Source: Cucumis sativus (taxonomy: Eukaryota > Streptophyta > Magnoliopsida > Cucurbitales > Cucurbitaceae). Taken from it: a stretch of 64,000 nt of DNA. This document shows, piece after piece, positions 414-59,700 of the stretch. The stretch covers positions 30,412,408-30,476,407 of the forward strand of contig NC_026657.2 of the NCBI RefSeq assembly GCF_000004075.3, given 5' to 3'. The position numbers and the translations under genes were made by a program. The notes under the pieces were generated by a model. The model saw only the letters and a program-made list of their open reading frames with translations, was not told the DNA's origin and made no database searches. Positions within the stretch are counted from its first letter, which is position 1. Every line of letters starts with the position of its first letter.

Positions 414-3292
414 TACGGAATATGGATCGTAGATGGGGAGAGCAAGTGGAAGGCTTTGATGTTATCGTCTTGTTTCGTTAGTGGGTAATAAATTTATGAT
501 GTAAAAGCCTAACAAAAGAGGTATCTTGTTTTGCTATCAAAATAAGCCTAAGGGTCAAATTGAACAAACTCCACATATAGATTCACTCCTACACACTTAA
601 CTCCACCGTACAAAATGGCATATAATGGTTTAATATTTATCTTACCCTTCAGTTATGATCAAATTAATGTAATCTATAAATATTTAGATGCTCTTTTCGT
701 TTTCTAAGTTATTCAAAAGAAAATCTCAAGCTCGGGGTCGTTAAGCTTTTCACAATTCTCAATTTTCATTGAGTATTGAAAAGTTAAAATGTAACGTGAA
801 TTACTACAAACAAAGTAGTATTGAAATGTATGTCCAATCGAGAGAGATTAAGGTTTAACTAAAACTTTATTTATTTATTTTTTTTTGTAAAAGACTAAAA
901 AAGATATTCATATATATATAATTTAAATAGAACCTCTATCATTATAACATGTATGGACTCTAACTTATACCTTTAACATCACATTCGATTTTCCATAAAT
1001 ACAATTTAAAAATAATAGAGTTAGAATTAGTTTCATGATTAAAAAGATTTGCTACATTTTCACGTGGACTTGTCATAAATTTTGTCGTTCGAAAAGGATG
1101 GCATGTTTGAATTCTCACTATCAATGTTGAACAGTTAAATTAAATACATCTTATCTAAATTAATCAAAACAATGTAACATGTAATGTAAGTAAAGGTTTA
1201 TAATAATGGCTTTGATGACTTTTTATTTAAAATTGATTGATGGCAAGATCAAGAAAAACATATATATCTTTTGATGTCCCATTTGAAAAGGATGGCCATG
1301 GAAGTAGACAACCCAAATGTGTATACATATCACATGTAAAATTACTTCACTAAAACCAAATATCTACTTTTGAAATTTCATATGAAATGTAATCGCTAAG
1401 ATAAGTTATTTGTGTCCTATGATACAAAGTTAATAGGACATCATTATAGTGTTTGATTGATGATATGATCAACTATATAAGAAAAATCAACGTATACGTT
1501 ATTAGATGAAAAAAGCCCCAAAAATATATGGAACTATATTAGAATAAAACCATGTTTTATATTTCTAAATTTGGTATAAAATGATTTGTAAAATCTAATA
1601 TGGTTGTTTTGTACTTCTAAGTTTTTCTTCTTCTTACTATAAAGTATACGTTGAATTATTACTTTTATTGTCGAAATGGAAATGTAATTTTATTGTTGAA
1701 AAAAAGAGTACAAAAACGTACATTTAGAAGACAACATAAATAAATATTTATATTTGAATTAAGGAATAAAGTGGAATTGGGGTTATGGGCCTCAGTATTG
1801 GGCCCGTGTTAAAGTTGGGCCAGATGATCTATCCAAATCAAACGTGGCCCGAATTTAAATATACACACACAATATTACTAAATTATAATAAAAAAATCAA
1901 AGATTATTTATATACTAATACTCCATTAGAATAGTTGTTATCTATCTCTCCCCTTAGAGCTCCAATCACTATGTTTATGTATTTGTTTAATTCAAGTGAG
2001 TGTTGATTTGTTTCCTTTGAATTGTTGTTGTTTTTAGAGAAGAGCCCATTGATTCAATTAAATAAATACAATGCTAAGTTATATAAAATATAATGCATTT
2101 GGTTTCCAATATAAAGAGAGGAATTGTCTCAATTGCCCCTCTTCGTAATGGATGGGTTTAGAATCTCCATACTGCCATTTTCGTCCCAATAACTACAAAA
2201 GGAATCTCGTTTTCTACTTTATTGATATGCCAAAATTGGTGGTGGGAAAATTATCTGTTTCAGTTTAATTTTAACTACTTTTATCTTTGAATTTCAAAAT
2301 GTTAAATTTAATTTTTATTTGGTTCTTATATTTCATAATGTTACGTGTTTTGAGATTTATTTGCATTTGATTGCTAGGTTTTAAAATTATATTCTAAATA
2401 CTTATCTTTTTTAATTTAGTGATAAATATATAATATTTTCAACACGAACGAAAATGACTACAATATTAAAAGCTTACATCTTGAAACTATCACATAAAAA
2501 ATAGGCTATATATACATGTGTGTGTATATATTTCCTGTGTAATGATGGTATTTCTTCAACAAAAAAAAAAACTTTAGATATTTGTTTTTTTTTTCAAAAT
2601 AAATAATTTATGAGAGGTTGATGGATTATTAAAACACAACTATACTCATATATATATATTTATATGATGGCAATAGTTTGACATGATTGATTCAAATCAA
2701 CGGTCAAGTATAGGGGTTTTTTTTATTATACAATTGAAGATGGTCATCAAAATAATGGTTTACCAATCTAGAATTTCGCTTCACTCAAACAAATTGTATA
2801 TCACCTAGTTGTCCACTTTTAACCTTTTTCTATTATATTAGTTTCTTAATTAAATAGGATTGTTTTTTCAAAATTTAAGATTTATTTAAGTAGAAAGTTT
2901 TAAAATTAATTGTAATGATAGAATAAGCCAATATTTTGAATTTTTGTATTTACCTCTATAAGATTGTTTTATTAAAGATCTGTTACTATTTAGAAAGACA
3001 TAGTTAAATGTGATTTGAAACTCCAATCTCAAACTTGAAATTTACTTTGTATTTTTATATAAAAAAGCAAGACCGATTAGGTAAAACTTTCTATAAGTTC
3101 TGAATTTTGTTTAAATTTAGTCAAATTTCAGTTATCAAAATACTCCCTGTTTTGTACCCTCCACCACTGACACCTAATTAAAACTTGTACCCAAAATAAT
3201 TTATTAATGTATACAGAAATCTAAAAAGACAAAGATATTTTAGGAAAGGAAAATATACTTAAATCAAAACCCCCACTAAACTTTATAAACCC
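414..3292. other. AT-rich intergenic spacer
   Basis: No gene is supported here. The stretch is AT-rich with homopolymer runs and short TA tracts. Its one structured feature is the cluster of TGGGCC motifs near 1786-1821, annotated separately. The last part carries the promoter of the downstream trihelix gene. Confidence 0.6.
1786..1821. promoter_or_regulatory. cluster of three TGGGCC (site II) motifs
   Basis: TGGGCC occurs at 1786-1791, 1799-1804 and 1816-1821, three copies in 36 bp of otherwise AT-rich DNA. Site II motifs of this type are bound by TCP factors in promoters of plant housekeeping and ribosomal genes. No gene starts close by: the nearest are the minus-strand leader at 413 and the trihelix gene at 3746. 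A functional role is inference. Confidence 0.35.
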
Positions 3293-37966: not shown

Positions 37967-40900
37967 TCACTTATCGGCTGTGTGCTTGGCTTTTGTGTGG
38001 GATTGTAACGCAGTTTCTGAGCCGAATGTCCTTCAATTAAAGTTTATTTTCACTATTAAATTGAAGTTGTTAACAATCTTAATTCTCTCCATGGAGTTAG
38101 GAAAATAGGCAGCATGAGTTACCTGTTGCAAGTTTTGCAAGAGAATGCGGCATTTGCTGATTTGGGAGTCTGCTGTTTATTTTTGTCATTAGCAGCGGCC
38201 ATTTTCCCGGCCTTCTTTGAAGGATGAGGAGTAGCTACATGAGCAACCCCTTTCTTGCCATCTGCAAAATTATATATATATAATATATATATATACACAA
38301 AGAAAAATCAAATTCAAAATTTAAAATACAAAACCCCATCTTAGCAATTTGTTTAAGAGTTCAAGAATTTGAAGTCCATCCCCAACCGTACAAGAATGAA
38401 ACAACATGAATTCCAAGCAAAAAGTACTAATATGATAAGAAACACAGGTCAACTTCACATCTACAGTAGCAATATAAAGGGGCAATAGAGAAGAAACAAA
38501 CCAGTTTTCTGAGGAGTGACGAGTTTTGCCTTCTTATCGGGAGCAGGCGTTTTATTAGCAGAATCTAAAGGTCTCTTCTTGCTTGCTTCAGCCTTCAATG
38601 GTTTCAATAATTATTTGATTAAGAAATAGCAAATAAAGGAAAAGAATATCTAACTTAACCCAATCAATTGACTTCATTTCTCACCATTAAAATTTGGTTT
38701 CTTACCCAAAAGTAATAATAACAATGAGGGAAAGATGGCAGCCTCATACCTTTTTTGGTGTCTGCTCATCCTCTTCCAAACTGTCATCCGAGTCCTCATC
38801 AGAGTCTTCACTATCGACTCCAGAAGACTCATTTTCATCATCATCGCTATCATCTTCTTCACCTCCATTTTCATTCTAAAGGAAACAAATGAAGATGAAG
38901 AAAGTTGAAATTAATTGGCCATATTGGTAGAGTAAATATTATGGTACAAAATTTCCTCATATGCTTCAGATCATTGCTAATATCAAGTAGCTCAGAACGA
39001 ACAATGCTCCAGTGATTATATTTATGACCATTGTACATGGTAAATATTGAAAGACGTCAAATTATCACACTTGACATGAGGTGAAAAGTTATAAATGGGA
39101 AGGTTTAAATTGATTAACTTATGAAAGTAAATTGATAATATTATTATTTGGGTTTCTAAAATTGATAATATTATTATTGGGTTTCTAAAATTGAAAATAC
39201 TATTATTTGGGTTTCAAATTAATGCAACCCCAAAAATTAGAAGCATAAAATAAAATTGTTTTAAGAACAGCCAAATTCAATCAAGATTTAAAAATTTCTC
39301 GCCATGGAAGGCATGGAGCTCTACTGTGTATGGTGCCGAGAACCAGTGACCTGTCTTGGAGGCAGTGGTGGATCCAAAAAATTTATTGACAGGGGGGCTT
39401 CGAGTTGTAACTTAGAGAAAAAATAAAAATCTGGAAAAAAAATTACATAGAGAAGACTTGAACTTTGGATGGAAGAGGGGCTGACAAGCATAGTTACCAC
39501 TAAACTTCCTACAAATATTGAACATTAATTAATTTTGTTTATACATATCATATAAAGACAATAAAGTTGAGGGGGGGCCGGCCCGTCGGGCCTATACTAA
39601 ATCTGTCGGTGCTTGGAGGTATGATGTTTGCCTCCACGTAAAGGAATATACCAAATTTGTGAAAAGAGAGGACCCGGATAGTAGCAAGTAGCAAGTTGTT
39701 TTTAATAAGTTAGCTATACTACTATTATTTTGTAGAAAAAGAGGACCCATGCAGCAAGTTTTTCTAAATAATTTACACTATTAATATGGTTTGGATGTGA
39801 AGGAATTATTGACCGGTAATTTACCCTATTCTGCCAAAATGCTGTTGATTTTAGGCCGTTATATTGCCACGAACAAAGAAAATGAGGAGAGCTAAATTAA
39901 TTAAGTTTGCTCCCTTCCTTGTCATGAATCTTCTTTCAAAAATAAATTTTCACACTTGGAAGTATAATGTAAAATGGCATCTAAGAGTACCTCATTATCT
40001 GTGCTCTCCTCATCCTCGTCATCATCTTCATCAGAACTGTCTTTATTCTTCTTACTGTCAATATTTGAATTAGAGGCAACTTTGCTTGGTTCTACAATCT
40101 GCACTTTTTTCTTGGTTCCAGAAGTATCAGGCTTTGCATCTTTCTTAGGCTCTGGCTCTGGCTCTGGCTTTCCTGCACCAAAGTATAATAGCCTATGTCA
40201 CTAAGTTTAGTTAAATGACACATGTACAAGAAAGTCTAGAGAGTAAACATCACCATTGTCCGTGACAGCTAGAGGAAAATCCTCTTCAGAATCAGTATCT
40301 GAAATTGAAAAATAGCAATCCAGAACACTTAATCATTGGTTTAAAAGAAATAAAAAGGAAGTACTAATGACAGCAAGTTGAGAAACAACTTACAAGTAGA
40401 TTCCTCCGTGGAAATGGAAAAAACTCAAACTAGTCAAGAAAACAACATAGAAAATGCAAATCAAGCAATTAAACAAAATAGTATGAAAATAAGTTTAAAA
40501 AATAAAACTAAAATGATTTAGGCCCCGCTTGACAATAATTTCGTCTTTAGAATTTTGTTTATTAAATTTATGCTTGTTTCTTCCTAATTTCTCAATTAGG
40601 GGTTTCACCTTTCTTAAAGAAAAACTCGAGCTCCTGCTTCCTATTCAAAATCTAAAAACAAAAACAAAACTTGGCTAGGTACTTGAAAACACTAGTCGAA
40701 ACTTTGAAGGGATAACCATACATTAAAATTGATGTATAGAAGTAATATTTATAAGCTTAATTTTCAAAAATAAAAAACCAAAAACCAAAATCGAGAAGAG
40801 CCTTAAGAATTCAGATAAAGGATATTCTTCTGGAAGGAGAGATGTATATCCTGTAAAGTGCACACTTCCGTTTTTCCAATTATGAGATAGCTCAAATTCT

Positions 40901-42023
40901 TTGTCAAACACAAGATCAAAAGACACTTGTGGGAATTTCTCCGAGGATAGTGTCCCCAGAACAAGCTTTTGATTGCCAACCTTGACATATAGGACAACCG
41001 GTTCACTTCCTTTGCTCTTGGACTCTCCAAGACAGGCCTGTGGAGAATACATAACTCAACTACTGCCCTACAGATTTCTTAAGAACAGATCAACAAATTA
41101 GCACAAATGATACCTGCGACAGATGCAGTATCTTCTCCTCTCCAGGACTCACCAAGAGAGGTTCTCCAACTTTAACCTCAGCACCTGCAAAACATAACAA
41201 TAACACTAATTTTAGGAAAAACATAGAATCACAACATAATTGACCGTATACTAACATGCTTCAATTAAGTTAGTAGACATGTAATAGAACCAAGTCATAC
41301 TTCCAACATATAAAACAACTCTTGGTTTCCAGCAGAAATTGTTTTCTTGATCCCTCATCTCCAGCAAGATAGTTATTAACAACAAACAATTAAGAACAAT
41401 TTGGAAAGTTCGAAATCATCAGGCAATAATCCTTTTTCCCAAACTATTAGTTCAAAACACACGCGCGCACATGATAAGATCAAGTAGAAACTCGTGAATT
41501 AGCCAAAATAAGAGAGATTACCAAAACGGCTGCACATAAGCAATCTTAAACACAGAACCCATGTAAATTAACCATGCACGTCAAAATTCAAACAACCCAA
41601 GTTCAAGATCACGTATCTGTAAAAAGAAGCGACTCTACAATTGTTCAAGTACTGTTTCCATTCAGTATCGTAACATTCAAATTCACGCCAGATACATTAA
41701 AAATTCAACTGGGACGAACTTAATAAAACACAATATCAGTTAAAACCGAATTTGCTCCTATATTTCACTTAGCAACGAAATGCAAAGACGGCATTAACAA
41801 ATATATGATAGCAAAAGCACACTGCAGCATGAACAGGTAACCGAGACCCAGACACTTCTAGGAAGAAGATGAAAAAACCTACCCGATGCTTAAGCTAATG
41901 CACTGTTCTACTGTTTTTCTACCGTATGAATACCTAAAGAGGCGCCAATGACGAAGAAGCATAAATACTGAAGAAAGAGGGGGGAGGGGAAAGGGAAGAG
42001 AGAAAGTTACCCCAAAACTCCAT
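37967..42023 (-). CDS. HDT: plant HD2-type histone deacetylase with C-terminal zinc finger
   Basis: Ten exons on the minus strand: 42023-42011, 41184-41114, 41037-40826, 40407-40394, 40298-40254, 40172-39991, 38875-38750, 38592-38502, 38261-38123, 38030-37967 (318 aa). The start MEFWGAEVK matches the invariant HD2 N-terminus (MEFWGVEVK). KILHLSQ carries the family's conserved His, and [20 protein letters not shown] matches the nucleoplasmin-like core. Long Asp/Glu/Ser runs and Lys-rich segments follow. The end is a C2H2 finger, [22 protein letters not shown] in pattern, spacing C-x2-C-x12-H-x4-H. HD2 proteins are nucleolar and nuclear plant-specific deacetylase factors acting in rRNA gene silencing and stress response. 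Intron 3 lacks a GT donor and fits a U12 AT-AC intron; exon 4 is only 14 nt. Intron 6 holds a hAT-like element. The gene is divergent from FK. Confidence 0.92.
39129..39219. repeat. triplicated 30-bp repeat in HD2 intron 6
   Basis: Three consecutive copies of AATTGATAATATTATTATTT followed by GGGTTTCTAA. The third copy is more diverged. They lie in the same intron as the hAT-like element. Confidence 0.75.
39363..39611. mobile_element. non-autonomous hAT-like element with 8-bp target duplication
   Basis: The 249-bp element begins CAGTGGTGGATCC and ends ATCTGTCGGTG. The 8-bp sequence CTTGGAGG occurs perfectly on both sides, at 39355-39362 and 39612-39619. The end repeats are short and imperfect (about 7 of 14 positions), typical of decayed hAT elements. 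It has no coding capacity. It sits in intron 6 of the HD2 gene (39990-38876). Confidence 0.7.
40394..40407 (-). other. 14-nt microexon of the HD2 gene
   Basis: On the minus strand GGAGGAATCTACTT lies between a probable AT-AC intron upstream and a GTAAGT donor downstream. It joins exon 3 (ending in GA) and exon 5 (starting AT) in frame, producing the acidic stretch LLPEEEESTYTDSEED expected at this point of HD2 proteins. Confidence 0.65.
40408..40825 (-). other. probable U12-type AT-AC intron of the HD2 gene
   Basis: On the minus strand the intron begins ATATCCTTT, an exact match to the U12 AT-AC donor consensus, and ends TTTCCAC. TTTCTTGAC, one mismatch from the U12 branch consensus TTCCTTRAC, lies about 26 nt before the end, at the far side of the usual range. 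There is no usable GT donor at this exon edge, and reading through would leave the HD2 sequence. Of its 418 nt, 282 are a MITE. Confidence 0.65.
40521..40802. mobile_element. Tourist-like MITE (PIF/Harbinger type) inside the U12-type intron
   Basis: The 282-bp element begins GGCCCCGCTTGACAATAAT and ends, reverse-complemented, GGCTCTTCTCGATTTTGG. It is flanked by TTA at 40518-40520 and 40803-40805, the 3-bp duplication of PIF/Harbinger elements. Subterminal AACCAAAAACCAAAA-type sequence and the GGCCCCG(T/C)TTGA start match a MITE family I recall from cucurbits. No coding capacity. Confidence 0.75.
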
Positions 42024-53714: not shown

Positions 53715-56700
53715 GTGGTGGAAACCAATCAAATGGATTCCGGCCAACCTGAGGGAAATAAGGCCGATGTCCAAGGTAGTTCTTGGATTCCAGCGACACC
53801 CATGAAGCCCATTCTACCAAAACCGCCGCTGCAGCCACTGATCTATGCAAGGATGGACCGGAATCAGCCACGACCATACTGGTTGGGACCAGAGAGACTG
53901 TTCTCAAATTCTGACAAGGAGGCTGAGACTAGCAGTGGAGTTGCATGTTACGGTGGAGCTAATTCCATGACAGCTAATGGTTCTAACGACTGGGAAGCAG
54001 CTCAGGCTAGGCAGTTTCAAGTGGCCTGTAACGATAATGGAACAGTGACGATACATTCCATGGATGCACTAGGCGGCATTCCATTTTTGCAGCTAATGGC
54101 TTTGGCAGATGCGGCTTCTATTGTGGGTGCTGATGCTGCATTGGGTGGAAATGCAAGCGACTTGTTCGATTCTGGCTCCAGCTATCAAATTGAATTGGAG
54201 TCTAGCTCTATGAAGGATCGTCTCAGTGGCAGCTGCATACCTGAAGCAAAAGAGTGTAAGTCCAGCTAATTTAAATAAAGTTAATTGCACTTTAGATTCT
54301 TAAATGTGGTATAATTGATAATGCTCTATTAACATTTAGTGCAAGAATCGTTAGAAAAAATACGAGCTGATGTGTTAAAAGCAGCACTATAGTATTAAAA
54401 GTATTGCTCTTTGGGGAAATTGAGACAATCTAATAGAAAAGGGAATTAGTACGAGAAAACTGATTGAAAATGGAGAATTATTCATGGCTTTATTTCCCAT
54501 TTTTGTTTCCTGTGAAGTTCTGGCTTTATTTTTTGGCTGCTGCCACATGCTTTAATTAGTTTAATATTTCTTCTGCCTACGTTATGTGAAGAAAAAAGTT
54601 CTAATGGGTTCCTATAATAACTAATGTGACAAATCTCTTGAAGTCCATCGTTGTTGACATCCATTGTTCTGAAATTATTTCCAAATTTACAGATGAAACA
54701 TCTGACCATGGCAGCCAGCATGCCCATGACCTCAATTTTCCATCGAGGACAGAGTCGGATGCAGCTGGTATTAGAGTAACCTCCCAATTTGCCCCTCTTA
54801 CACCAGACATGGGCAAGATTAAATATACCGAAAGAGGGATGGAACTACAGCAGATACCAACTGAGAACAGCCAAGATGAGAGAGAACTGAACCATAACTG
54901 TAATACTTCAATAACGGTTGATGGTGAAAACCTGAGACAAAATCAAGAACTTCTTGAACCTGCAATGCACTCAACAATTAATTGTACCCCAGATGGAAAG
55001 GAAGGCAAGAACGATGGTGACCTTAATAAAACACCAGCATCAAGACAGAGAAGGAGAAAACATAGGCCTAAGGTCATAGTCGAAGGAAAGACTAACAGAA
55101 CAAAACAAAATTTGAAGACACCTAGTTCCAATCCAAGTGTGAGAAAGCGTGTCAGGAAAAGTGGACTTGCTAAGCCTTCAGCAACTCCCTCAATAGAAGT
55201 AACAGGTGAAACCTCAGAACAAGAAATAGTCAAGCATAGAAGAAAGTCATGCAGAAGAGCCATAACTTTTGATTCACAGGCCCAAACGAGAGATGAATCC
55301 CTCGATTTAGGGCCATTGGAACAAGGTTCACTCACACAAAACATTCAATCAACTACAGGACTAGAGGAAGTGAGGATTGAAGAGGTAGGCTCTTCCACTG
55401 ATCCAAATTGGTCCATGAATCAAATGCTGAAAAAATACGAGTCTCTATCTGAGAAAGAAGCCCCACCCACCGAACTTTCAGCTGAAAATGATTCTTCTGA
55501 GCAGACACAGCCTTCAAAAAGCCAAAAGGAGAACGATACAGAACAAAATGGTAAAGTGATTTCCAGTTCTGATAAAGAAAACACAGTTGAGACCATCCTA
55601 AATGATGAGAATCATTCATTACCAGGAAACTCACATGGTCTTATCTTCTGCAAGAACCCACCATTGACATCAATAGAGCAAGCAACTTGTTGCCTTAGGA
55701 AACGTCCTCGGGCCATCAAACAAGCACATACTGGAAGCATAAATTTAACAGGAGCCCATTATAATACATTATCTGCATATCAGTCGATGTCCTGGATGCA
55801 TTTTCCCCACATTTACAAAAAAAAAAGAACTGAGAAGGGGCAGAACCCTATTCCCTCAAGTGCATTTGCTACGGCTACAAATTTCACAAGGCCAGAAAGT
55901 GCATGCTCTTTCAATGACCCCCAAAGAGATCACGTGGTATCAAAATTCAACACCTGGATACCTGGTCCTCAGTTTAATATTTGTAAAAGTAAAACTGTAG
56001 CTGGGCATGAAGGAAACAATCTTCAGGATAAGTTGCAAACATGTGGAGGAATCGTGGGCTTGGGTCAGACTGGGAGAACAAAAAAGAAACCTAGAACAGC
56101 CAAACGACTTTCTAGCTCGGCTCGTCCAGAAAGAATTAGTCATTGGGAGAAGCAGCCAATATATCCTACTAATCACCCTCCCCCAGCAGGTTCTGCAAAA
56201 AATATCAATACATCGGGAACATGTATAAATGGACTATTCGAGATAATGCATGCAACTGTGGCAAAGAAGAAAAGAACAAAGAAGAAACCTTCAAACTCAG
56301 CACTTCTCAATATAAATAAAGATCTTCAGGACCGCAGATTTGTATCCTTCAGTCCCTGGCAATTCTTTCCCAAGACATTAGGTACCAAAATTGAAAGTTT
56401 CTTTATCAATGCTGAAGATGTTTACCCATTTAAAGATTTTTTTTCTTACTTTTTACCCCTTTCCTTTATCTATACAGGCACTGATTCAGAACATGGTAAT
56501 CAAATATGCTTTATTGATCTCATAGCTGAACAATTAAAGCATTTAGACATCAACAAGGAAAGCAACAATTTGGGATATAGAGAGCAAGCACTTATACCCT
56601 ATAACATGCAAAATCAGGAGCACAATGCTATTGTCGTTTATGGAAGAGATGGAACTATTGTACCATTTAATCCTATAAAGAAACGACGGCCACGACCGAA

Positions 56701-59700
56701 AGTCGAGCTTGATGAAGAGACTGGTAGAGTATGGAAGCTTCTGATGGGAAATATAAATAGTAAAGGCATTGATGGAACAGATGAAGAAAATATCAAATGG
56801 TGGGAAGAAGAGAGGAAGGTGTTTCAAGGACGAGCAGATTCATTTATTGCTCGGATGCATCTTGTTCAAGGTACAAAATAAACTATCCAATTTTTAACCC
56901 ACTGCTACCAAAGAGTTACTTCTAGAATTCCATGTACATCAAATAAATAACAAAATTCAGTGAAGTTCATTAGACAATTGGGTTTAAGAGTTCTGGAGTA
57001 TGAAGTTAATTCAGCAAAACGACCTTACTTGAGCAAAATATGTTCTATAGGTTGTACAACTGTGTCGTTGAGTTCTAAGAAGACATTGATGCAGTAAAAT
57101 CAATCTATATGAGAAACGAGGGAAAGAAACAGCAACAAGAGGGTTTATAGAACAATAACACCTTTGGCATACCTTCTTGTAGAAATTAAACAAGAAAAAT
57201 CAAATTCCTAGGCTTAGGACATGTTCCAGGGTGAAGATGATGTGGTTAAAATTATTTTTGACATTTTCAAAATCACATCAAAATATGTTGTTCAACATTC
57301 AAAATCGATTTTCATATCAAAGTTGATTTCAATGGTTAAAAACATGTTTTGATGTGATGTCTCGGTGCACCACCTAATCCCCACTGGTTCCCTCTTTTAA
57401 GCTTCTTTATTACTCTCATTGTATAATTCTCTTGTACTATGAGTTTTTATTAATAAAGAATGTCTCCATTCCAAAAAAAGAAAAGGTAAAAAACATGTGT
57501 CAGAATGATTTTTAACAAATAACAAAAGTGACTTTAACTAGTTTAAAATCACTCCCAAACATGTCTTTAGAAGCCTAGTGCTTCTGCATACCTCTTGTAT
57601 ATCCCTTTTTGGAACAGATCTGCTTAAACAGTAAATTAAGTTCTTAGGCTTAGAAGTCAAGTGCTTCTCTACATATGTATGTATTTGTCGGCAATGTGCT
57701 CCATAAAAACACAAATGAAAATTTAACTTGCACGATTAGTCTAGGCCTAGTAGTTGGCATCCTTACTATAGCAACTATTTTGCTGATCTGTCTAAGCAGT
57801 AACTTGACATCATTTCTCCAGGAGATAGGCGTTTCTCTCAATGGAAGGGATCAGTCGTGGACTCTGTGGTTGGAGTATTCCTAACTCAGAATGTCTCAGA
57901 TCACCTTTCTAGGTAAGCTAGATTGTTAAATGGTGTGAGCTAAAAAGTGTAATTCAAAGTAATCTCCATTTTCACCCTTTTTTATTAAATCCTCCTGATG
58001 TTTGCAGTTCTGCCTTCATGTCTCTTGCTGCACGCTTTCCTCCTAAGTCAAAGTGTCGCCAAGCATCATGCTCTCAAGAGCCAATTATAGAATTAGATGA
58101 GCCCGAAGAAGCATGCATGTTCAATTTAGAGGATAGCATGAAATTGAACAAACAGATAATACATCAGCAAATAAGTGAAGAGGACTTGTTGATGAAAGAT
58201 GAAATGGAAAAAGGTGAAGGACGAATAATTGTTGAAAACAATGAATCGTCTGGAAGTAATGTAGAGGATGGGAGCTCAAACAAAGAACCAGAAAAGAAAA
58301 GTTTTAGTTCATCTCATAACATTCTTGAGACATGTAGCAATTCTGTGGGAGAAATATCATTGACTGAAACCAGCTCAATGCAAGCATGTCTCTCCGGAGA
58401 GAAAGAAACGTATGATTCATTTTCATCTCAAGACTGTTTGGATTCATCAATTCCTCAAACCAATGAGAGTGTTGAACCATCCTCGGAAGGAAACTCAGAA
58501 GATCTACCAAGCTGGTCCACAGAGGCACACATTGACTCTTCATCAGAGGAGCTTACTCAGATGACTGGACTAAATACTTTAAATGCTAATTTTACCATTG
58601 ATACTTGCGTTGAACAGTCAGAAAATACCATCACCAACAAATTAGTAGAAAATAAGTGTGACAATAGAATAGATGACACTTCCCAACCAGTTGATCCTGA
58701 AATATCCTTAAAAAATTCTGTTTATCATTTGAGTGGTTACCAAACGCAGCAAAACCAGACCTCAAAATCATTGGAGGTTGACTGCTGTCAGACAAGCAAT
58801 GGAGTTCAAACTTCTAATGATTGCCAAAACAAGGACGAACAATTTCATACTGAACAAAGTACACTGACTGTAGAATCTGACAATCATGCTATTGTTGAGA
58901 TGGAGCTCATAGTAGATATCGTTGAAGCACCATCGTCAAGTAGTGAATTAAGCATCAATGCAAAGGAGCCATGTTTGACCTTACAGTCTCAAAGCAGTGT
59001 GATTGAAGACCCTCAAAATGTGGAGTCACCAGCAGAATGTACAAATACTGTGCATGAAATTCCACCAAATGCTACAGAAATAGCAACAAAGCCAAATCCA
59101 AAGGAGTGTAATCTACTTAGTAATGAGTTTAAAGAGTTGAAACCTGCCTCTTCAAGATCTCAGAGTAAGCAAGTTGCAAAGGAAAAAGATAACATTAATT
59201 GGGACAACTTACGAAAACGGACAGAAACCAATGGAAAGACACGGCAGAGAACTGAAGATACGATGGATTCATTGGATTGGGAGGCTATAAGATGTGCAGA
59301 TGTGAATGAGATTGCACATGCCATCAGAGAACGGGGCATGAACAACATGCTTGCTGAACGAATCAAGGTATCATTATCTCGTTAATTTCATACATGATCT
59401 AAAATTCTAATCAGTCCCTAGCACTAGCTGAGTACTGTATGAGTAATTTGTACAGGATTTTCTAAACCGTCTGGTGAAAGATCATGGGAGCATTGATCTC
59501 GAATGGTTAAGAGATGTGGAACCAGACCAGGCAAAGTAAGATTACTTGAGAACTTAAATATCAAATTCTTGAAAATGCTATCTTCTACACTAGAGAATAT
59601 ATTGCATCCACCAAAATTGCATGATTTGTCCATTGGGTTTTACACGCAAATGTAAAATATGCAGAGAATATCTACTAAGCATAAGAGGATTGGGACTGAA

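Follow-up and report, generated by a model that had tools for sequence, protein, structure and literature searches.

A U12-type AT-AC intron followed by a 14-nt microexon is predicted in HD2 histone deacetylase genes of cucumber

Known microexons and minor introns

Among the described systems closest to the locus reported here are the microexons of plants and the minor intron of CBP20. A survey of plant microexons (1-15 nt), together with its modelling tool, worked with a definition that, in the passages setting it out, admits GT-AG or GC-AG introns only, on both sides of the exon (PMC8831610); a microexon flanked by an AT-AC intron thus falls outside that survey. The exon considered here resembles the surveyed ones in its size, its conservation, its strong donor and the shortness of its downstream intron. 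It is an internal coding exon of 14 nt, below the limit of 15 nt, in 3/3 HD2 genes (one of them, L008, also permits 17 nt). It differs from them in the intron upstream, which is of the AT-AC kind rather than GT-AG or GC-AG. The intron of CBP20 shares with the one described below its AT-AC ends, a U12 branch site and a conserved position at the boundary between a folded core and a tail, but the exon that follows it measures 111 bp in the Arabidopsis minigene (PMC5932401), as against 14 nt in HD2.

The earlier note on this DNA had called the pairing of a minor intron with a microexon unusual. No report of an AT-AC intron paired with a microexon was found among the open literature matches listed, and the plant microexon survey, as its method is described, would miss such a case (PMC8831610). 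Likewise, no report of an HD2 gene with a U12 or AT-AC intron was found among the titles, abstract openings and passages listed, and novelty is not thereby established. In the MEPDB paper (PMC12409088) the words histone, HDT, HD2, AT-AC and U12 were looked for, and none of them occurs. The minor-intron and microexon unit, as predicted here, is an uncommon pairing of known parts.

Two further studies bear on it. The drol1 study (Suzuki et al. 2022, Plant J) reportedly includes plant-specific histone deacetylases among the affected Arabidopsis AT-AC genes, and we take the AT-AC introns of Arabidopsis HD2 in that study to be, very probably, the same intron as intron 3 of the gene described here. 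Wu and Krainer (1996) are said to have described U1-mediated exon definition between AT-AC and GT-AG introns. As in the HD2 gene, a GT-AG donor lay downstream of an AT-AC acceptor in their case, but the exon between them was reportedly of normal size and not a microexon of 14 nt.

The HD2 gene and its third intron

The window, by which we mean the whole stretch of 64,000 nt of Cucumis sativus DNA that was analysed, carries on its minus strand (42023-37967) an intact frame of 319 codons, stop included, that reading frame and splice signals spread over ten exons. Its features are the following.

41038 to 42023, minus strand: exons 1 and 2 (42023-42011 and 41184-41114) with introns 1 and 2, both GT-AG, placed by frame and splice signals; the protein starts MEFWG
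40826 to 41037, minus strand: exon 3, 212 nt, end of the NPL core, phase 2 at 40826; matches the solved Arabidopsis HDT1-4 NPL cores
40408 to 40825, minus strand: predicted U12-type AT-AC intron 3, 418 nt, with a CCAC end
40817 to 40825, minus strand: predicted U12 5' splice site ATATCCTTT, 9/9, directly after exon 3
40512 to 40790, minus strand: AT-rich dispersed repeat in intron 3, given by the approximate limits of its main matches
40433 to 40441, minus strand: predicted U12 branch site TTTCTTGAC, 8/9, with the branch A at 40434
40394 to 40407, minus strand: predicted exon 4, the 14-nt microexon GGAGGAATCTACTT, placed by frame restoration, the branch site and a length kept in two other HD2 genes
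40299 to 40393, minus strand: U2-type GT-AG intron 4, 95 nt, with a GTAAGT donor; its counterparts measure 113 and 93 nt
37967 to 40298, minus strand: exons 5 to 10 (40298-40254, 40172-39991, 38875-38750, 38592-38502, 38261-38123 and 38030-37967) and the introns between them; acidic tail, C2H2 finger and a TGA stop at 37969-37967

The encoded protein has an MEFWG N-terminus and an NPL domain (Pfam match at residues 3-93, 76.5 bits); its middle part is acidic, and it has a C-terminal C2H2 finger, matched by zf-C2H2_6 at 25.5 bits, barely above the cut-off of 25. Some HD2s have these last two features. Six solved structures match the protein. The NPL cores of Arabidopsis HDT1, HDT3, HDT2 and HDT4 score best, and the structures of FKBP43 and FKBP53 rank below them. 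These top four of six matches, taken with the domain layout, identify the gene as a predicted member of the HD2 (HD-tuin) family, which upholds the identity first proposed for it. About 12 kb from this gene, at 53715-59385 on the plus strand, there are long frames that by eye resemble a DEMETER/ROS1-type DNA demethylase gene.

The earlier note had placed an exact U12 AT-AC donor right after exon 3, and ATATCCTTT at 40825-40817 is indeed a 9/9 match. The proposed intron end, CCAC at 40408, and the branch site upstream of it were also borne out (8/9 match), and the coordinates given there for intron 3 and the microexon proved correct. From the branch A to the last base of the intron there are 26 nt, a distance longer than is typical for U12 introns. 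As judged by eye, pyrimidines abound past the branch site in each of the three HD2 genes, where a U12 intron would be expected to lack a polypyrimidine tract. An 8/9 branch match also occurs inside U2 intron 7 of the same gene. Intron 3 splits codon 99, five whole codons after the end of the NPL match, and on its retention the frame would read on for 33 residues to a stop. The signals of the intron and of the microexon were read from the genome sequence.

Intron 2 was also considered as a U12 candidate. It starts with GTATCATTT, an 8/9 U12 donor, at 41105-41113; with a length of 76 nt and a best branch match of 5/9 it was assigned to the U2 class. This start of a short intron is perhaps the mark of a converted intron, or it is due to chance.

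To place the exon that follows intron 3, we listed all candidate exons between exons 3 and 5 that are shorter than 200 nt, keep the correct frame free of stops, and have both an AG or AC acceptor 8-35 nt past a branch site matching in 8/9 or more and a donor matching in 6/9 or more. With this branch site required, the 14-nt exon is the single solution both in the window gene and in L009, another HD2 gene of cucumber, and the third HD2 gene, L008, allows either 14 or 17 nt. When no branch site is demanded, the window gene has 3 such exons (32, 14 and 2 nt), L008 has 7 and L009 has 1. Exon 3 could be joined directly to a 5'-extended exon 5, in frame and open, at 1 place in the window gene (a 29-nt extension), 0 in L008 and 6 in L009. 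The 14-nt exon is the solution that all three HD2 genes share. When it is included the protein reads ..LPEEEESTYTDSEED.., where the microexon encodes part of the acidic stretch, and dropping its 14 nt ends the frame at once. Two earlier claims, that a 14-nt exon restores the frame and that it gives the acidic segment expected in HD2, thus stand, the first of them helped by the same length in the paralogs.

Taken as a whole, the locus is best read as a constitutive 14-nt coding microexon of HD2 with a U12 AT-AC intron upstream and a short U2 GT-AG intron downstream, a prediction to which we give a probability of about 0.88. That the intron-microexon unit is real has a high probability.

The proposed AT-AC intron might instead be replaced by a GT-AG (U2) intron elsewhere. 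Gene finders that demand GT-AG would pick such an intron, and five in-frame GT/GC options exist near the end of exon 3. However, from 62 nt before that end to the read-through stop, in-frame GT/GC donors score at most 5/9, as against 5-8 for the eight GT donors of the gene, and with none above 5/9 all were rejected after enumeration; the upstream GT option would moreover delete the last NPL strand, and such donors are unused in the structure shared by the paralogs. The earlier statement that no GT donor is available where the protein must be spliced can be kept, and a GT-AG replacement has next to no chance of being correct. It is also conceivable that the window gene is a decaying copy, broken by the repeat, in which the splice signals are leftovers. 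The repeat fills about 2/3 of intron 3 and the branch site has one mismatch. Against decay, the 319-codon frame is intact over ten exons, the NPL and C2H2 domains are present, and donor, branch site and acceptor all lie outside the repeat; we hold this explanation to be very improbable. The earlier note had taken the inserted sequence for a MITE. The repeat itself is real, with at least 43 genome matches including the intron's own copy, and its copies are partial, number dozens genome-wide and vary in their limits; the MITE label is uncertain, terminal inverted repeats having been looked for in the intron 3 repeat and none found. A repeat that lengthens the intron need not harm its splicing, to judge from CBP20, where protoplasts spliced longer U12 introns better in all cases but one (PMC5932401).

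A different possibility accepts the AT-AC intron and makes the microexon alternative, with exon 3 often joined to exon 5 and inclusion tuning the dose of HD2. Skipping brings a UGA right after the NPL core, within 2 codons, in 3/3 HD2 genes, so that the product would be a decayed transcript or an NPL-only protein. In vertebrates, disturbed bridging between minor and major spliceosomes leads to exon skipping and to stop-containing isoforms found on polysomes (PMC8034651). Yet the exon and its signals have been kept through near-saturating divergence and code for an acidic stretch, which fits constitutive use. In addition, none of the three HD2 genes has a branch site of at least 8/9 between the microexon and exon 5; in all of them the one nearest to the 3' end precedes the microexon, by 22-26 nt. 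An alternative microexon seems unlikely to us, and constitutive inclusion is the reading that we carry forward.

Paralogs, chance expectation and the age of the intron

At least five NPL loci were located in the genome (226.6 Mb, 88 contigs) by protein match, independently of the splice motif. They are the window gene, a tandem HD2 pair on contig C6 (L008 and L009) and two FKBP53-like genes (L006 and L007). A search of viral contigs for further HD2 genes confirmed none. The AT-AC donor is ATATCCTTC (8/9) in L008 and ATATCCTTT (9/9) in L009. Both have a 9/9 branch site, with 22 nt (L008) and 26 nt (L009) from branch to intron end, and in both the CCAC end, the 14-nt exon (GGATGGTTATCTTG in L008, GGAAGAATTTTCTG in L009) and GTAAGT recur in the same phases as in the window gene. 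The intron after the microexon measures 113 nt in L008 and 93 nt in L009. With this layout shared by 3/3 HD2 genes, the comparison of paralogs gives the strongest support for a U12 AT-AC intron followed by a microexon.

At the protein level, exon 3 of the window gene is 61% identical to that of L008 and 57% to that of L009, which are 75% identical to each other. The corresponding dS values are undefined, 2.84 and 0.45, and the synonymous divergence of the window gene from the other HD2 genes is thus saturated or nearly so. Intron bodies, with the splice signals removed, align at the level of shuffled sequence (59, 62 and 60 of 100 mononucleotide shuffles reached the observed score). As dS is near saturation and the intron bodies are at shuffle level, the signals are what has been kept: across the HD2 genes, the compared sequences point to conservation of splice signals, exon length and coding sense. 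The three genes represent two lineages, the window gene and the tandem pair, and are not independent proofs, because L008 and L009 are close (dS 0.45) and all share common ancestry.

Two details of the tandem pair deserve mention. At positions 3066-3086 of L008 (reversed; C6:10659435-10659415), the acceptor TTACCAC contains tandem AC sites 3 nt apart that could yield an exon of 14 or 17 nt, both in frame. If the 93-nt intron of L009 (reversed; 3120-3212) is retained, the frame meets no stop before exon 5, in contrast to the window gene and L008.

The donor motif by itself was rejected as evidence, its frequency being at chance level: RTATCCTTT occurs 2 times in the 64-kb window against 2.5 expected. 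The composite of RTATCCTT, TTYCTTRAY and CCAC, which was defined only after the site had been seen, occurs once in the window, whereas 60 first-order Markov sequences of the same composition contain it 0.017 times on average (maximum 1). If CAC or CAG is accepted instead of CCAC, there is again 1 occurrence in the window against 0.15 in the Markov sequences. A figure of 1.7e-11 was set aside, as it presumes the independence of five related genes.

Genome-wide, the pattern TTYCTTRAC-N4-25-YCAC-N2-15-GTAAG has 14 exact matches, fewer than its reversal (37) or a version with a scrambled branch site (18). Three of the 14 are the HD2 genes; in each of them the gap measures 14 nt and an ATATCCTTY donor lies upstream. 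The 1500 nt upstream contain RTATCC in 5/11 of the other matches and in 6/18 control matches; for RTATCCTT the counts are 2/11 (L030 and L035) and 0/18. With the branch-YCAC-short-exon pattern below its control counts, these matches give no sign of a general class of minor-intron microexons, and no wider class is claimed; what they show is that donor and spacing set the three HD2 genes apart. At L030 (1390-1547) the order is ATATCCTTC, TTCCTTAAC, CCAC, 10 nt and GTAAG, with the donor 111 nt upstream of the branch site. The place resembles the 5' flank of a gene, with no coding context clear to the eye, and this match is probably due to chance, or else a 5'UTR minor intron. On the reverse strand of L035, a TTTCTTAAC..TCAC..GTAAG match has GTATCCTTA at 366 nt in the upstream direction, which may likewise be chance.

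Beyond the HD2 genes, a U12-like donor in phase 2 is found at the corresponding place in 5/5 NPL loci. The FKBP53-like genes, so named from FKBP-type motifs seen downstream by eye, have a phase-2 intron past the NPL core with the donor GTATCCTTT or GTATCCGTT and an AG end.

L006, 2741 to 2885 (C3 near 12206740): predicted GT-AG U12-type intron of an FKBP53-like gene
L007 (reversed), 2187 to 2619 (C6 near 5205814): predicted GT-AG U12-type intron of an FKBP53-like gene

Their acceptors were set by frame and mutual similarity, and their best branch matches are 7/9, which is weak, and 8/9. The exon that follows contains the counterpart of the microexon and exon 5 in one uninterrupted piece. Since the linker from the last NPL strand to the intron differs in length between HD2 and FKBP53-like genes, homology of the intron position rests on its phase, its U12 type and a shared upstream intron. 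On these grounds the minor intron probably predates the split between HD2 and FKBP genes, and a switch of subtype between GT-AG and AT-AC, a change described for U12 introns (PMC2831892), likely took place within one gene superfamily. The simplest reading of the microexon's origin is that the HD2 genes gained a U2 intron, which split off a 14-nt piece; loss of a U2 intron in FKBP53 is equally possible.

A proposed splicing order and its consequences

Searches of the cucumber genome itself found U12, U11 and U6atac, the last with 12 matches of which 2 are strong; the ten weaker ones are perhaps pseudogenes. U4atac gave no match in this genome by a search that gave none in any genome. CENATAC/CCDC84 was found, as was a Dim1-family gene on contig C7 whose two joined exons match TXNL4B at 7.8e-31 as against 3.3e-11 for TXNL4A. 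CENATAC promotes the splicing of AT-AN minor introns (PMC8280824).

The microexon would offer, with its 14 nt, scant room for a minor 3' complex and U1 simultaneously. Because the downstream introns of the HD2 genes are short (95, 113 and 93 nt) and have GTAAGT donors, we infer that intron 4 would leave first, by intron definition, joining the microexon to exon 5. The AT-AC step would then come last, the minor spliceosome joining exon 3 to the microexon, possibly aided by U1 sitting on the far side of the microexon, and by DROL1/TXNL4B and CENATAC, which are factors specific to AT-AC introns. Should this step fail, by retention or by skipping, stops would fall just past the NPL core, and full-length HD2 would require the minor spliceosome; it would thus be the AT-AC step that decides between productive and unproductive HD2 mRNA. 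Retention of the U12 intron brings a stop in 5/5 NPL genes. Such an order has counterparts among plant microexons, whose upstream introns are detained more often than the downstream ones (PMC8831610). Among 69 constitutive microexons in that survey, 16 had reads with only the downstream side joined and none with only the upstream side, and 4 showed the reverse; downstream reads exceeded upstream reads in 32 of the remaining 49, and the 14-nt microexon of AT2G30695 also has downstream-first reads (PMC8831610).

The earlier note also saw here a tie between a chromatin regulator and minor-spliceosome activity. This is so only in the sense in which it holds for any minor-intron gene. Regulation of HD2 through the minor-intron and microexon unit is a plausible hypothesis. 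A more tentative proposal, doubtful but worth stating, is that of a family-wide dose switch, with an AT-AC step between core and tail of every HD2 gene found here. If it were true, low AT-AC capacity would make all HD2 transcripts stop after the core, so that HD2 proteins would be lowered together or core-only subunits would possibly enter HD2 pentamers, and microexons behind AT-AC introns would be an uncatalogued plant class.

Gene finders that insist on GT-AG will probably annotate the HD2 microexon wrongly. An exon of 14 nt between a minor and a major intron would put to a hard natural test the sharing of a single exon by two spliceosomes, and the HD2 paralogs provide ready-made variants for it. 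If the unit works as proposed, the output of HD2 would depend on AT-AC splicing.
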